In this document: positions 13,913 to 21,138 of the stretch, in pieces
Layout: the number at the start of each line of letters is the position of its first letter
Numbering within the stretch: the stretch's first letter is position 1
Origin: Sulfurimonas sp.
GTDB lineage: Bacteria > Campylobacterota > Campylobacteria > Campylobacterales > Sulfurimonadaceae
Assembly (NCBI RefSeq): GCF_029027405.1
Contig: NZ_CP093396.1
Location: 2,057,497-2,121,496 of the forward strand
Direction of reading: 5' to 3'
Length of the DNA stretch: 64,000 bases
The notes under the pieces: generated by a model
Seen by the model: only the letters and a program-made list of their open reading frames with translations
What the model was told of the DNA's origin: nothing
The model's database searches: none
Made by a program: the position numbers and the translations under genes

Positions 13913-15264
13913 TATAATGCCCCTAAAAATCAAGACAACTTTCCTAAAGATTTAATTTCATAAGCAACTGTTACCTTACCCTACATTTTTTAGATATTCA
14001 AGATAAACATTCATCGGTTTTCTATAATCTAAACTTGAGTGAAATCTCTTAAAGTTGTATTTATAGATATAAGCTTTAACTCCTTCTTTTAAATTTCTAA
14101 TAGTTTGATAATCATTTATGTAAATATTACCATGTTTAAGGGTTCTAAAAAATCTCTCAATTACTATATTGTGAATACTTCTAGCTTTCCCATTCATTGA
14201 TATTTGAATATTATATCTTTTAAGTATCTGAGTATGCTCATTGCTTGTATATTGACTTCCTTGATCACTATTAAATATCTTAGGCTTAGGATACTTTGCA
14301 AGTGCCTTTTCTAGCACATCGGTTGCAAGTGTTGCATCCATAGAATTAGTACCACAAGGGCATGATAATATTTTATAGGAGAGTATAGCTTTAGAATGCC
14401 AGTCTATAACTGCTGCCAGATACATAAAACCTCCGTTAATACGAATATAGGTAATGTCACCACTCCATACTTCGTTTGGAGTAGGCACATAGACAGTATT
14501 TTTCTTACCAACTCTAGTCCAATACTTCTTGAGGAGGTACTCATATATTTTATGTTCTTTATTTTTAATACTTGTTAGTTTCTTTTTAGTTGGGTATATT
14601 GCTTGTATGCCAAGTATTGCCATATATTTCAAGACTCTATTTCTGCCAATGGCATAGCCATCTTCTTTGAGTTGCTCGTAGATAAACCTATAACCATACT
14701 CTGAGTTCTCTGTAGCTATCTCATCAATTTTATGAAGTAGTTTGATGTTTTTTTGACTCATTGGTACTGGTTGATAGTAATAGTGGCTTCTACTAATACC
14801 AAATATCTCACATTGCTCTGAAATTGATAATTTTTTATGCTTGGACTCGATCAAAGCTTTTTTATTACATAAGTCCAAGCTCTTTAGCTTTTTTTCAACG
14901 AAACCTGCTCTTACAGTTGCTTTTCCTAGTGCCTTAGCTAAGCCATCATTCTCAGTTTTTAACTCTTCTATTTCATCTCTATAAGCTTTCGTCGCTCCAC
15001 CCAAGTCAAATGCTAAAGATGCATTTTCTAAAAATTGAGTCTTCCATTTTCCTAATGATTGAGAAGTGATTTTATACTTAGTTGCTAACTGACTTATTGT
15101 CATATCTTCTTTTAACATTTCTAAGACTATTTTAGTCTTCTGTTTTGCCGTATAAGTTTGCCCTTGTTTTCTACTCATAATTTATCTCCATAATTCTTAC
15201 TTATTTTAGCTTTTTTGAAAATAAATCCTACTGAATTGGTGTCTTAGATTTTAGGGGCATTATA
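13913..15264 (-). mobile_element. IS3-family insertion sequence
   Basis: The element spans about 1352 bases between imperfect terminal inverted repeats, 13913-13936 and 15241-15264, that match at 21 of 24 positions and begin TATAATGCCCCTAAAA. It encodes one transposase on the minus strand. No convincing target-site duplication was seen, so the exact ends may differ by a few bases. It sits between pepN and sqr and interrupts no recognisable gene. Confidence 0.85.
13976..15178 (-). CDS. IS3-family transposase, single fused reading frame
   Basis: The 400-residue protein has an N-terminal helix-turn-helix and leucine-zipper-like part (OrfA-like, residues 1-97), then a HTH_21 region and an rve integrase core. 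The DDE residues lie in SGDITYI, NSDQGSQYTS and IERFFRTLKHG. In most IS3 elements OrfA and OrfB are separate and joined by a -1 frameshift. Here they are in one frame. The slippery heptamer A AAA AAG is still present in frame at codons 95-97 (14889-14895). A -1 slip there would give a 104-residue OrfA-like product ending AKELGLM. Confidence 0.92.
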   Translation of the reverse strand: MSRKQGQTYTAKQKTKIVLEMLKEDMTISQLATKYKITSQSLGKWKTQFLENASLAFDLGGATKAYRDEIEELKTENDGLAKALGKATVRAGFVEKKLKSLDLCNKKALIESKHKKLSISEQCEIFGISRSHYYYQPVPMSQKNIKLLHKIDEIATENSEYGYRFIYEQLKEDGYAIGRNRVLKYMAILGIQAIYPTKKKLTSIKNKEHKIYEYLLKKYWTRVGKKNTVYVPTPNEVWSGDITYIRINGGFMYLAAVIDWHSKAILSYKILSCPCGTNSMDATLATDVLEKALAKYPKPKIFNSDQGSQYTSNEHTQILKRYNIQISMNGKARSIHNIVIERFFRTLKHGNIYINDYQTIRNLKEGVKAYIYKYNFKRFHSSLDYRKPMNVYLEYLKNVG

Positions 15265-15504: not shown

Positions 15505-16971
15505 ATGGCAAGATTAGTAATACTTGGTGCTGGGGTAGCAGGTCATACAGCAGCATCATTTGCTGCAAAATGGCTAGGAAATGGACATGAGGTAGTAGTA
15601 GTTACTCCAAATGCAAAATGGAATTGGATTCCTTCAAACATCTGGGTAGGTGTTGGAGAAATGACTAAAGAAGAAGTTACTTTCGACTTAGCACCTGTGT
15701 ATGAAAAAGCAGGGGCAGTATATAAGCAAGCAAAAGCTGTTTCAATTAATCCTGAGGGTAGCGAAGCAATGGAGAAACCATTTGTTAGTATTGAATACAC
15801 AGGACAAGATAAAGAAGGCTCAACTGAAGATGTAGAGTATGACTATCTTATAAATGCAACAGGACCTAAGCTCAATTTTGGTGCAACACCAGGACTTGGT
15901 GAAGGCACTACTTTAGGCGAGCATACTGTTTCTGTGTGTACTGCTGATCATGCTGTTCATGCATCTCATGAGTTAAATAATTGCATCCAAAAGATGAAAT
16001 CTGGAGAGCGTCAAAAGTTCTTAATTGGTACAGGACACGGAATGTGTACTTGTCAAGGTGCTGCATTTGAGTATATTTTCAATATTGAACACAAACTTCA
16101 AGAGAAGGGCGTTAGAGATATGGCGGATATCACTTGGATTTCAAATGAATCTTTCTTAGGTGACTTTGGTATGGGTGGATTACACTTTAAGATGGGTGGC
16201 TTTGTTACTTCATCTAAAGTTTTTGCTGAGTCTCTTTATGCCGAGCGTGGTATGGACTGGATTATTGGTGCTCATGTAAATAAAGTTGAATCAGGCATGG
16301 TTACTTATGAGTCACTTGATGGAAGTATTGATACTCAAGAGTTTGACTTTGCTATGCTTATCCCACCATTTGCTGGTGTTGGCATGAAAGCTTATTCTAA
16401 AGATGGTAGTGATATTACAGATACAGTTTTTGCTCCAAATGGAATGATGAAAGTTGATGCTGACTACACCAAAACTTCTTATGCTGATTGGGAGCCAAAA
16501 GATTGGCCAAGAACTCTTCAATCTCCTGTATATAAAAACATTTTTGCAGCTGGAATTGCTTTTGCTCCACCACATCCGATTTCAAAACCTATGAAAACAC
16601 CAAATGGAACTCCAATCACTCCAACTCCTCCAAGAACTGGTATGCCATCTGCTATGATGGGCAAAGCTGTTACTCAAAGTATTGTTGATATGATAAATGG
16701 AGCACCTGAACCTACTCATACATCATGCATGGCAGAGATGGGGGCAGCTTGTGTAGCATCTGCTGGTAAAGGTTTATTTAGCGGAACTGCGGCAGCAATG
16801 ACTGTTTTTCCAATCGTTCCAAACTTTGAGAAATACCCTGGAACTGGTCGTGATATAAATGGTACAACAGGTGAAATTGGTCTTGCAGCACACTGGGTGA
16901 AGCATCTACTTCATCATGTGTTTATGTGGAAGGCTCAACTTAAACCAGGTTGGACTTTAATTCCAGAATAA
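15505..16971 (+). CDS. sqr: Sulfide:quinone oxidoreductase family flavoprotein
   Basis: The 488-residue protein begins with a FAD-binding motif (VILGAGVAGHTAA). It has Cys residues in CTADHAVH and in HGMCTCQGAA, the latter fitting the redox-active cysteine region of SQR enzymes. There is a second FAD segment (NIFAAGIAFAPPHPI) and a C-terminal amphipathic part rich in Trp and His for membrane attachment. It oxidises sulfide and passes electrons to quinone. A flavocytochrome-c-sulfide-dehydrogenase-like role is less likely because no cytochrome partner is adjacent. The exact SQR type was not assigned. The small gene at 16997 follows by 25 bases. Confidence 0.85.
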   Translation: MARLVILGAGVAGHTAASFAAKWLGNGHEVVVVTPNAKWNWIPSNIWVGVGEMTKEEVTFDLAPVYEKAGAVYKQAKAVSINPEGSEAMEKPFVSIEYTGQDKEGSTEDVEYDYLINATGPKLNFGATPGLGEGTTLGEHTVSVCTADHAVHASHELNNCIQKMKSGERQKFLIGTGHGMCTCQGAAFEYIFNIEHKLQEKGVRDMADITWISNESFLGDFGMGGLHFKMGGFVTSSKVFAESLYAERGMDWIIGAHVNKVESGMVTYESLDGSIDTQEFDFAMLIPPFAGVGMKAYSKDGSDITDTVFAPNGMMKVDADYTKTSYADWEPKDWPRTLQSPVYKNIFAAGIAFAPPHPISKPMKTPNGTPITPTPPRTGMPSAMMGKAVTQSIVDMINGAPEPTHTSCMAEMGAACVASAGKGLFSGTAAAMTVFPIVPNFEKYPGTGRDINGTTGEIGLAAHWVKHLLHHVFMWKAQLKPGWTLIPE

Positions 16972-16996: not shown

Positions 16997-17200
16997 ATGA
17001 GCGAAGAAAAAAAAGAAAAAATTGTTGTTGACAATGAGCATAAGCATGTACAACATGTAGAACCATACACACCTCAATTTGGTACTATGATACCAAGTAG
17101 CGGACAAAAGTTCATGAGAACTTGTGTTATTTGGCAACTATTTAGATTTATTGCAATAAATATAAAGATGACTGTATTAATTATTAAAAGTCATCACTAA
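16997..17200 (+). CDS. Small conserved-looking protein next to sqr
   Basis: The 67-residue protein is not recognised. It has a hydrophilic, charged, His-containing first half and a hydrophobic C-terminal helix (about residues 44-63) that could attach to the membrane. AGGAG lies 8 bases before its ATG, and it starts 25 bases after sqr, so it is probably real and co-transcribed. A role as a membrane tether or regulator of SQR is only a guess. The antisense frame here is a shadow. Confidence 0.65.
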   Translation: MSEEKKEKIVVDNEHKHVQHVEPYTPQFGTMIPSSGQKFMRTCVIWQLFRFIAINIKMTVLIIKSHH

Positions 17201-17206
17201 CACTTC

Positions 17207-17232
17207 TCGTTCCTTCCATTGCGAAGGAACGA
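17207..17232 (+). terminator. Strong hairpin after the sqr unit
   Basis: A perfect 10-bp stem (TCGTTCCTTC / GAAGGAACGA) with a 6-base loop follows the small gene by 6 bases. The expected T-run is missing on the plus strand; the tail is A-rich first and then T-rich. It may be a weak terminator or an mRNA 3'-end stabiliser. Confidence 0.5.
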
Positions 17233-17269
17233 AAAAACCATTTTCATTTAAATTTTATAAGGCTAAATT

Positions 17270-18073
17270 ATGATTAAAGATATAATAATATACCCGACTC
17301 CAACAGGTGTGGAATATGCTCCAGATATAAGAGTTTTCAATGAGCAACTTTTTATTTTTATTGATGATTTAAAAGAAACAGTTGAAGCAAATAACTTAAA
17401 AGGATTGGCAGCTCCTCAAGTTGGAAGTTATTATAACTTAGTAGTTATAAAAAAGGATGGAGAGTTTCTTGAACTTATAAATCCGAGAGTTCTTCGAAAA
17501 TCAGGAGAAATAACCTCAGTAGAAACAACTTCTTACTTCCCAAATACAAGTGTCCAAATAAAAAGATATGAAAGTATCAGTTTAGTATATGAAGATAGAA
17601 ATGGAGACTCTCATTCTTTAAAAGCCTCTGGAGACTTTTCTATACTTCTTCAGAGAAAAATTGATTATCTATTTGGAGCGAATTTTTTAACAAAACTAAA
17701 AGATAAAGATAGAGAAAATTTTGAAGCAAGCTTAAATGCCAATGGAGTAAGTTGTCCTACAACACCATCATCATTTAGCAGAGATTATTTTATAAAAGCT
17801 TCTAATATTGTTTTAATTGCAATGTTATTACTACTTATTTCATCATTTATTATAAGTGAAAAAGATACATTGAAAGAAATGTGGAATTATCAACTATACC
17901 TATCATTTGGCGTTTTAGCCATAAATATTTTTTATGCTCTTTACTCATACTATGAAAATAAAAAATTTAGCATCTGCACCAATTGTTACAATATGAGTAT
18001 ATTTGGTGTAGTTGCCATGGGCTTTTTTAGATTAACTATGATTATGGTAGTATCATTTTTATTAATTAATTAA
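17270..18073 (+). CDS. Catalytically degenerate peptide-deformylase-like domain fused to three membrane helices
   Basis: Residues 1-145 follow the peptide deformylase fold: motif 1 GLAAPQVG at 45-52 is intact, and LELINPRVLRKSGE matches the usual LINP region. Motif 2 (EGCLS) reads ETTSYFP at 85-91, so the metal-binding Cys is lost. Motif 3 (QHExDH) reads QRKIDY at 128-133, so both His ligands and the catalytic Glu are lost. Residues 176-265 form three membrane helices. It cannot be a normal deformylase. It lies 27 bases before a hybrid histidine kinase and probably shares its mRNA, so a sensory or binding role is plausible but unproven. Confidence 0.8.
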   Translation: MIKDIIIYPTPTGVEYAPDIRVFNEQLFIFIDDLKETVEANNLKGLAAPQVGSYYNLVVIKKDGEFLELINPRVLRKSGEITSVETTSYFPNTSVQIKRYESISLVYEDRNGDSHSLKASGDFSILLQRKIDYLFGANFLTKLKDKDRENFEASLNANGVSCPTTPSSFSRDYFIKASNIVLIAMLLLLISSFIISEKDTLKEMWNYQLYLSFGVLAINIFYALYSYYENKKFSICTNCYNMSIFGVVAMGFFRLTMIMVVSFLLIN

Positions 18074-18100: not shown

Positions 18101-20383
18101 ATGTATGAAAAATTACCAAACTTGGTAAAACATAGAGAAATTTTCATAAACTCTAAAAATGATATTATTACAAAATGGTTATCTTACACTTCACCACAAA
18201 AAATATTAAAACAATATGACATAGAAAAAGAATTTTTTTTATCAAGATATGCTGGCGGTGTATTTGATTACTTTATGAATGTAATAGAAGGTAGTGTAAA
18301 AATTGGACAATGTCCTATTATGCATAAATTTTTACTATATTTAAAACATAAAGAAATAAGTGCTGATGAACTTTTTGAAATCTGTAATCATTTTCGCCGT
18401 TCTATGATTGATTTTTCTTACGATAAAGAACTAGATTCAAAAGATATGACAAATGAAATATCATTTATTTTTGACAAAAACTTTAGAGGTGTATTAAAAT
18501 TTCATACAGAGACAGTCTTTCAAAAACTCATTGATGCCAGAAAAACAGCAGATACAGCTTCACAAGCTAAAGAATATTTTTTATCAAACATGTCTCATGA
18601 GATTAGAACTCCACTTAATGCTATTTTAGGTTTTGTAAATCTTCTTATGGATGAAAATGTTTCAAAAAAACATAGGAACTACCTAAATATTATTTTTAAA
18701 AGTGGTGAAAATCTTTTAAGTATTATAAATGATATTTTAGACTTCTCTAAACTGCGTAGTGGTGAATTTACAATCGAAGCAAAAAATTTCTCAGCCCATG
18801 ATGAGATAAGCCAAACTATGGAGCTTTTCGTTGCTAGTGCTAATGAAAAAAATATTACTATAACATCTTTTATAGACCCTTATATTCCAAAAAAACTATA
18901 TGCCGACTCTTTAAGAATGAAACAAATATTATCAAATTTTTTGAGTAATGCCATAAAATTTACATCAGTAAATGGACATATCTGCGTAGAAGCTTCTTAT
19001 GAAAATAGAAATCTCATACTAAGTGTTACAGATAATGGTGTAGGTATCAAAAAACAAGATTTAGACAGTATCTTTACTGCTTTTGTTCAAGCAAATTATG
19101 AGCAATTAAAAAACTTAGACGGAACAGGTTTAGGACTTTCTATTTGTCATCAACTTGTACAACGAATGGGTGGAAAAATAAATGTAACATCAACATTTAA
19201 AAAAGGAAGTACTTTTTCAATTAGTTTACCAGCATCTTCGCAAAGTGAACTTTGTCCTATTTATGAAAATATATTAAACTTTCAATCTTATAAAATTGTA
19301 ATTTATTCAGAAGATAATAAAGACTGCTATAAGGCAAATTCTTTCTTAAAGTATGCAAAAATATTTGATATGAATGTAGAAATAGTTAATAACTTAGATA
19401 ATGATTTTGATATAGCATTTTTTGTAAATGAAGATGTTAATGCAGATTTTAAAGCAAAACTTATAAACTCAGATAAAAAATTCATAGCAATGGTAAATAC
19501 ACCAAGTGACGAATATGACAAATATGATAATATCGCATTTATCTCTTTTCCTTTATATTGTTCTAAAATAAGAGATACTTTTAGTGAGATTTTTAACCCA
19601 GATGCTTATTCTCCTCACAAAAAAAATATTGCTACCAAATTTATTGGTCATATTCTTGTAGCAGAGGACAATGAAGCCAATCAAGAACTTATTAAAATTA
19701 TACTTGCAAAATATGGACTTAGTTTTAGCATTGCTCACAATGGGCTAGAAGCAGTCAACCTTTATAAGCAAAATCATTATGATTTAATTCTTATGGACGA
19801 ACAGATGCCAATCATGGATGGAACACAAGCAGTTAAAGAAATTTTAGACTATGAGATAAGCAAAGGACTTGGGCATACACCTGTTTCAGCACTTACAGCA
19901 AATGTAGTAAAGGGAGCAAAAGAGAAACGATTAAGCAGTGGGTTTGACTCATTTTTGGGTAAGCCAATTATTTTAAAAGATATAGAAGAAGTTTTTAACC
20001 TCTACCTAAAAGTAAATTTTAGTGAAAACAATAAGATAAAAATACAAAAATCTAAGGACTCTATTATTGGTTTAGATACAACGAAATTAAAAGAAGAACT
20101 TATGTTAAATCAAGATGAACTACTTATGCTTTTAAAATTATTTATAAAAAAAATGAAAAAACAACTTCCAGAATTAGAAGAAGATATAAAGAATAAAGAA
20201 TATAAAAAAATTGCACTAAATGCTCATAGCATAAAAGGTTCGAGCGGAAATTTTAGAATAGAATCTATACAGCATAATGCAAGTGAGATGGAAGAAATGG
20301 CAAAAAATGAAGATGCCAATTATAACTATAAAATATGTTTAGAAAAAATAAGAAGAAGAATTCAAGAGATAGAGATATCTTAA
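18101..20383 (+). CDS. Hybrid histidine kinase with receiver and HPt domains
   Basis: The 760-residue protein has an unrecognised helical N-terminal domain (1-150) and no membrane helices. DHp (MSHEIRTP, His 166) and an ATPase domain (N-box FLSNAIKF, G1 DNGVGI, G2 GTGLGLS) follow. Next come a degenerate receiver-like stretch (about 385-505), a proper receiver with Asp 566 in ILMDEQMP, and a C-terminal HPt domain with His 709 in AHSIKGSSG. It is a complete soluble phosphorelay. AAGGAGG precedes the start. Its final target is probably the convergent response regulator at 20389-21138, 5 bases away. Confidence 0.9.
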   Translation: MYEKLPNLVKHREIFINSKNDIITKWLSYTSPQKILKQYDIEKEFFLSRYAGGVFDYFMNVIEGSVKIGQCPIMHKFLLYLKHKEISADELFEICNHFRRSMIDFSYDKELDSKDMTNEISFIFDKNFRGVLKFHTETVFQKLIDARKTADTASQAKEYFLSNMSHEIRTPLNAILGFVNLLMDENVSKKHRNYLNIIFKSGENLLSIINDILDFSKLRSGEFTIEAKNFSAHDEISQTMELFVASANEKNITITSFIDPYIPKKLYADSLRMKQILSNFLSNAIKFTSVNGHICVEASYENRNLILSVTDNGVGIKKQDLDSIFTAFVQANYEQLKNLDGTGLGLSICHQLVQRMGGKINVTSTFKKGSTFSISLPASSQSELCPIYENILNFQSYKIVIYSEDNKDCYKANSFLKYAKIFDMNVEIVNNLDNDFDIAFFVNEDVNADFKAKLINSDKKFIAMVNTPSDEYDKYDNIAFISFPLYCSKIRDTFSEIFNPDAYSPHKKNIATKFIGHILVAEDNEANQELIKIILAKYGLSFSIAHNGLEAVNLYKQNHYDLILMDEQMPIMDGTQAVKEILDYEISKGLGHTPVSALTANVVKGAKEKRLSSGFDSFLGKPIILKDIEEVFNLYLKVNFSENNKIKIQKSKDSIIGLDTTKLKEELMLNQDELLMLLKLFIKKMKKQLPELEEDIKNKEYKKIALNAHSIKGSSGNFRIESIQHNASEMEEMAKNEDANYNYKICLEKIRRRIQEIEIS

Positions 20384-20388
20384 AGATT

Positions 20389-21138
20389 CTACTCTTCTAT
20401 ACAATAACCAATGCCTGAAGCATTTTTAATAATATCTGTTGGCAACTTATTTCTAAGTCTCCAAACCAGTGTTCTAACACTATTTGCTGTTGCTCCACTC
20501 TCTTGCCAAACATAGTCCATTGCTTGCTCAAATGTAACAACACTAGCAAGTTGAGCGACTAAAAGACGCAAAAAAGCATTCTCTTTTTTAGTAAGTTTAA
20601 TTTTTTTATCTTTAAAAAATGTTTCACTTATACCTATATCAAGATAATATTCATCTCCAAAATATACGATTGGTTTATCTATATCTTTTTTTGCATGTAA
20701 TAATTTTTCAATATCAAAATCATTTACATTTGATTCTTCTATATTTACTTTTCTTTTATTTTCAACTTCATACTTAAAAATTGCCATCTGAAGAGTTGCA
20801 TGAAGAGAAGATGGATCAAAAGGCTTAACAATATAACCATAAGGTTCAGTTTGTTTTGCTTGAGATATCATGTCATCATCACTATAAGAAGTGAGATAAA
20901 TAAACGGAATATTATATTCTTGTCTTACAGTATTACCCAATTCTATGCCATCATTGCTTTCATCAAGAGATATATCAATGATTATTATATCTGGTTCCAA
21001 CTCTTCTATTTTAACTTTTGCATCTATTGCATTATCACAAACTGCTACAACATCATAGCCATGTTTTTGCAGAGATAAATTAAGATTTAACGCTGTAATC
21101 TCATCATCTTCAACAATAATAATACTATTTTCAACCAT
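20389..21138 (-). CDS. Response regulator with winged-helix DNA-binding domain
   Basis: The 249-residue protein has an N-terminal receiver (EDDE near residue 10, Asp in IIIIDISLD, Thr/Ser in YLTSYS, Lys in VKPFDP). A linker of about 40 residues leads to an OmpR-type winged helix ending LVWRLRNKLPTDIIKNASGIGY. It is convergent with and nearly touches the hybrid kinase, which makes it the likely output of that phosphorelay. Its targets are not visible. Confidence 0.88.
   Translation of the reverse strand: MVENSIIIVEDDEITALNLNLSLQKHGYDVVAVCDNAIDAKVKIEELEPDIIIIDISLDESNDGIELGNTVRQEYNIPFIYLTSYSDDDMISQAKQTEPYGYIVKPFDPSSLHATLQMAIFKYEVENKRKVNIEESNVNDFDIEKLLHAKKDIDKPIVYFGDEYYLDIGISETFFKDKKIKLTKKENAFLRLLVAQLASVVTFEQAMDYVWQESGATANSVRTLVWRLRNKLPTDIIKNASGIGYCIEE

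Follow-up and report, generated by a model that had tools for sequence, protein, structure and literature searches.

A membrane-anchored pseudo-peptide-deformylase encoded beside sulfide:quinone oxidoreductase in Sulfurimonas, probably an accessory of sulfide metabolism in Campylobacterota

The psPDF locus

The window, i.e. the whole stretch of 64,000 nucleotides of Sulfurimonas sp. DNA that was analysed, contains an open reading frame of 267 predicted amino acids (17270–18073, + strand), hereafter called psPDF (pseudo-peptide-deformylase with membrane domain). It consists of a dead peptide deformylase (PDF) domain (residues 1–155), Cys162, hydrophobic helices at approximately residues 174–198, 209–227 and 244–266, and a CxxC motif at residues 236–239. 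Residues 3–148 match the Pfam family Pep_deformylase with 94.2 bits (E 7.7e-27) over profile positions 2–155 of 156, confirming the proposal of an earlier sequence-only reading of the locus that the PDF fold is retained. Almost all of the PDB sequence matches, among the matches listed, are deformylases (best E 6.6e-14). The score with the NCBI equivalog TIGR00079, 67.5 bits, is below the cut-off of 103.95.

psPDF shares the fold along the whole profile with the peptide deformylases (PF01327; E. coli PDF, PDB 1bs4; Bacillus PDF, 1ws0), as well as Gln50, Glu88, Arg102 and Asp135, but it lacks their metal ligands and catalytic Glu, has replacements at Gly43, Ile44 and Ser92, and has gained a C-terminal membrane domain with a CxxC motif. 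In the alignment with E. coli PDF the metal ligands Cys90, His132 and His136 correspond to Thr87, Arg129 and Tyr133, and the catalytic Glu133 to Lys130, the same four losses that had been noticed previously; motif 3 reads QRKIDY in place of HExxH. A true PDF with the motifs EGCLS and QHEVDH is encoded elsewhere in the same genome (G000:C1:2750100), and the housekeeping deformylase function is therefore covered. Nothing relevant was found in the literature on inactive deformylases. An AlphaFold model of psPDF, obtained with a three-sequence alignment (the window, L032 and L033), had a pLDDT of 51.7, which was too poor for inspection of the pocket.

Upstream of psPDF, on the same strand, are the genes for a sulfide:quinone oxidoreductase (SQR; 15505–16971, 488 amino acids) and a small conserved protein (16997–17200, 67 amino acids). 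A stem-loop, CGTTCCTTC-cattgc-GAAGGAACG (17207–17231, + strand), lies between the small protein and psPDF, and is a possible attenuator or mRNA stabiliser. With a loose rule, a terminator-like hairpin was found between these two genes (17200–17269 in the window) in 39 of 96 loci, and the hairpin may keep the expression of psPDF below that of SQR. A soluble hybrid histidine kinase (18101–20383, + strand) starts 27 nucleotides downstream of psPDF and is convergent with the gene of an OmpR-type response regulator (20389–21138, − strand). A putative IS3-like transposase, identified by its sequence as one fused ORF (13976–15178, − strand), sits between a PepN-like aminopeptidase gene and SQR; in relatives the aminopeptidase gene directly precedes SQR.

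Conservation of psPDF homologues

Homologues were sought in the family (228 genomes) and in the phylum (397 genomes), from which more than 100 loci were retrieved. This search, the counts of which cover Campylobacterota genomes, yielded 113 distinct psPDF homologues from six families of Campylobacterota, many of them sulfur oxidisers, none with intact metal ligands. A genome-wide scan with psPDF gave three Sulfurimonas loci. No match to the C-terminal part was found in plasmids, and matches in phages were restricted to the PDF part, with no more than about 60 % of the query covered.

The position of Cys90 in motif 2 is occupied by T, S, D or N in all 113 homologues and never by Cys. The second His of motif 3 (His136) is likewise never present, being replaced by Y, F, M, I or L, nor is the catalytic Glu133 (K, Q, M, Y or T), and the first metal His (His132) is found in only three homologues. 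The residues at 90/132/133/136 form the set T-R-K-Y in 81 homologues and D-R-K-M in six, with Q-containing sets (SQQY, SQMF) in a few clades. Motif 1 (GxGLAAxQ), which had been described as kept, is so only in its LAAxQ part, including Leu46, Ala48 and Gln50: 98 of the 113 homologues have Leu in place of the first Gly (Gly43), and 84 have an acidic residue (Asp or Glu) at the position of Ile44. Ser92 is exchanged for Tyr in 103 homologues, and Leu91 is also replaced. In active PDFs, Gly43, Ile44 and Ser92 lie along the site where the formyl peptide is bound. Glu88, Arg102 and Asp135, which stabilise the core of the PDF fold, are invariant.

The dN/dS ratio of psPDF relative to its nearest relative was 0.107 overall, 0.118 for the PDF part and 0.092 for the C-terminal part. 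Judged from residue conservation, the dead site has been rebuilt as a conserved pocket formed by T87, R129, K130 and Y133. Since the psPDF family passes the Pfam deformylase cut-off, its members are liable to be annotated as peptide deformylases, although their residues rule out a conventional deformylase in every case.

The C-terminal 110 residues of psPDF contain about three hydrophobic helices, in agreement with the earlier description; three are found in 98 of the homologues and two in the other 15. Both cysteines of the CxxC motif (CTSCQ; C236 and C239), located between TM2 and TM3, are present in all 113 homologues, and C162, in a CPT motif just ahead of TM1, is present in 109. The four homologues without C162 form a single clade that is not linked to SQR. 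The mean number of K and R residues was 5.2 on the side of the N-domain and CxxC loop and 1.2 on the other side, and the N-domain and CxxC loop would thus be cytosolic by the positive-inside rule, so that the three cysteines could share one face of the membrane.

Association of psPDF with SQR and a small protein

The main and ancestral partner of psPDF, missed in the sequence-only reading, is the upstream SQR together with the small protein. Clustering of the neighbouring genes placed a 489-amino-acid SQR homologue ahead of psPDF in most loci, with an ORF of 52–67 amino acids between them. The SQR of the window matches the Aquifex SQR 3hyv (E 2.2e-36; FAD fold). It is homologous over most of its length to type I/IV SQRs (Aquifex 3hyv; Acidithiobacillus 3t31) and has all three of the SQR cysteines (C145, C183 and C416), which were intact in 85 of 85 SQR sequences, but it differs from them in being followed nearly always by the 52–67-amino-acid protein. 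Type IV SQR is universal in Sulfurimonas and clades with type I (PMC4584964), and on the basis of that review the upstream SQR is probably of type IV.

The small protein, a near-constant neighbour of SQR, has the core ..RTCxIWQFIRFIxINIKMLxVVxKSH and ranges from 52 to 67 amino acids across the loci. It has no Pfam or NCBIfam match, and a small partner protein of SQR was not found in the literature or family databases searched. It is encoded directly upstream of psPDF in 96 of 113 copies, from six families including the deepest branch, and the gene ahead of it at the psPDF loci is almost always SQR. Among 117 distinct loci, SQR is found beside the small protein in 114, two of the other three being near the end of the retrieved stretch; such locus percentages are biased because the loci were mostly picked through psPDF matches, a bias of which the phylum genome tallies of psPDF and the small protein are free. 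In this phylum sample of 397 genomes the small protein was present in 111 and psPDF in 79. The small protein accompanies psPDF in all 79 of these genomes, and psPDF occurs in none of the 286 genomes that lack the small protein, tallies for which the relatedness of the genomes inflates any statistical test.

Four good-quality genomes of the same genus (G141, G199, G210 and G213) lack SQR, the small protein and psPDF altogether, with the aminopeptidase and kinase genes directly joined at an otherwise syntenic site, and this joint absence indicates that the three genes are gained and lost together. psPDF can also be lost alone, as in genome G156, in which SQR, the small protein and the kinase are present beside a psPDF relic. 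The relic (L171:5211–5402) encodes the last approximately 42 residues, with CxSC, and lies between the intact small protein and kinase genes. Since 32 of the 111 sampled small-protein genomes are also without psPDF, psPDF is dispensable for SQR and the small protein. The small protein is probably a partner of this class of SQR whether psPDF is present or not.

About 16 psPDF copies are located away from SQR, and at 10 of these an AhpD-like (CMD) or DsrE-like gene is no more than two genes away, in many cases accompanied by a MerR-type regulator in divergent orientation. The loci L039–L045, L047, L110, L130 and L131 have SQR-unlinked psPDF beside AhpD-like and DsrE-like genes. Thiol and sulfur chemistry is thus a theme that recurs independently of SQR, and such loci possibly represent a second sulfur/thiol operon.

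Possible roles of psPDF and the adjoining kinase

psPDF is probably an accessory of sulfide metabolism in Campylobacterota, neither an enzyme nor the partner of the adjoining kinase. The reading favoured here, with a somewhat better than even chance of being correct, is that psPDF is a membrane-anchored pseudoenzyme serving as accessory of an SQR module that comprises SQR, the 67-amino-acid protein and psPDF. A PDF fold without metal and catalysis would be held at the inner membrane by an anchor of about three helices, the basic pocket of its cytosolic PDF domain may accommodate either an anion or a partner protein, and the cysteines facing the membrane may engage in thiol or sulfane-sulfur chemistry or bind metal. 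psPDF would then tune or assemble SQR, or pass on sulfur from it. The role as SQR accessory is suggested by joint inheritance and by operon linkage, which is not evidence of physical contact. The loss of C162 in one SQR-unlinked clade fits such a role, but represents a single event. More tentatively, and with less than an even chance of being correct, the deformylase fold could have been recruited before several Campylobacterota families diverged, to serve SQR as a sulfane-sulfur/thiol relay or redox switch anchored in the membrane; SQR, a new small subunit and psPDF would then form a three-gene module. SQR is central to sulfidic ecosystems, and little is known of its membrane partners. The accessory reading draws attention to two accessory proteins of this enzyme, and would provide a clear example of the fold of a nascent-chain enzyme being put to new use in a membrane pseudoenzyme; the three-gene module is open to direct testing in culturable Sulfurimonas.

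PDF works on nascent chains, psPDF has a membrane anchor, and SQR is a monotopic protein with a C-terminal part that contributes to its anchoring. These properties would suit a role in assembly or insertion, in which a remnant of PDF that binds ribosomes or nascent chains would deliver SQR and the small protein to the membrane, with no sulfur chemistry involved. This is considered unlikely, as SQR and the small protein are maintained in genomes that lack psPDF, and the conserved trio of cysteines and the AhpD/DsrE contexts would be left unexplained.

The joint conservation of all four residues of the TRKY set in 81 of 113 homologues and the strong purifying selection on psPDF could also reflect an active, re-purposed enzyme, with Lys130, Tyr133, Arg129 and Thr87 as a metal-free catalytic site. 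The set differs between clades (DRKM, SQQY, SQMF), however, beyond what would be expected of catalytic residues, and to our knowledge no PDF relative uses a catalytic set like Thr/Arg/Lys/Tyr, making an enzyme of this kind rather improbable.

The sequence-only reading had coupled psPDF to the downstream kinase, as a membrane sensor of N-formyl peptides or a related ligand. The adjoining gene does encode a soluble hybrid kinase (HisKA-HATPase-REC-Hpt), in which no membrane segment was seen and which has no membrane sensor of its own, and it adjoins psPDF in 61–62 of 113 copies. These copies, however, all belong to one family; in the tree, SQR-linked psPDF is found in all six families and the deepest branch, and the kinase-linked state is not. 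The N-terminal domain of the kinase (approximately 145 amino acids; 18101–18535 in the window) was found in 73 of the 397 genomes, some of them without SQR and psPDF, and was missing from many that have both. In the phylum sample, no psPDF genome of families f4, f8 or f9 has the kinase, and in G024, G077 and G013 the kinase directly follows SQR and the small protein, without psPDF. Its N-terminal domain has invariant cysteines (C71 and C95) and mostly conserved histidines (H39 and H97), and the kinase therefore probably senses by itself. Binding of formyl peptides was set aside on account of the frequent exchanges of Gly43, Ile44 and Ser92 given above; since these substrate-binding residues are replaced along with Leu91 and Glu133, formyl-peptide sensing is unlikely. 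A sensor role of psPDF towards the kinase is accordingly regarded as very improbable. Local decay of a duplicated deformylase, which the true PDF elsewhere in the genome would have allowed, was rejected as having practically no chance of being correct, because 113 intact homologues carry substitutions of this type, the dN/dS ratio is close to 0.11 and the dead site has turned into a conserved pocket.

In the favoured reading, the kinase is a regulator that was added in a single family, and not an obligate partner of psPDF. It shares the HisKA-HATPase-REC-Hpt arrangement with BarA/ArcB-like hybrid histidine kinases, but differs from these in being soluble and in having the N-terminal domain with conserved Cys and His residues, for which there was no Pfam match. 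This domain is also found on ORFs of about 500 amino acids in another family (f7).
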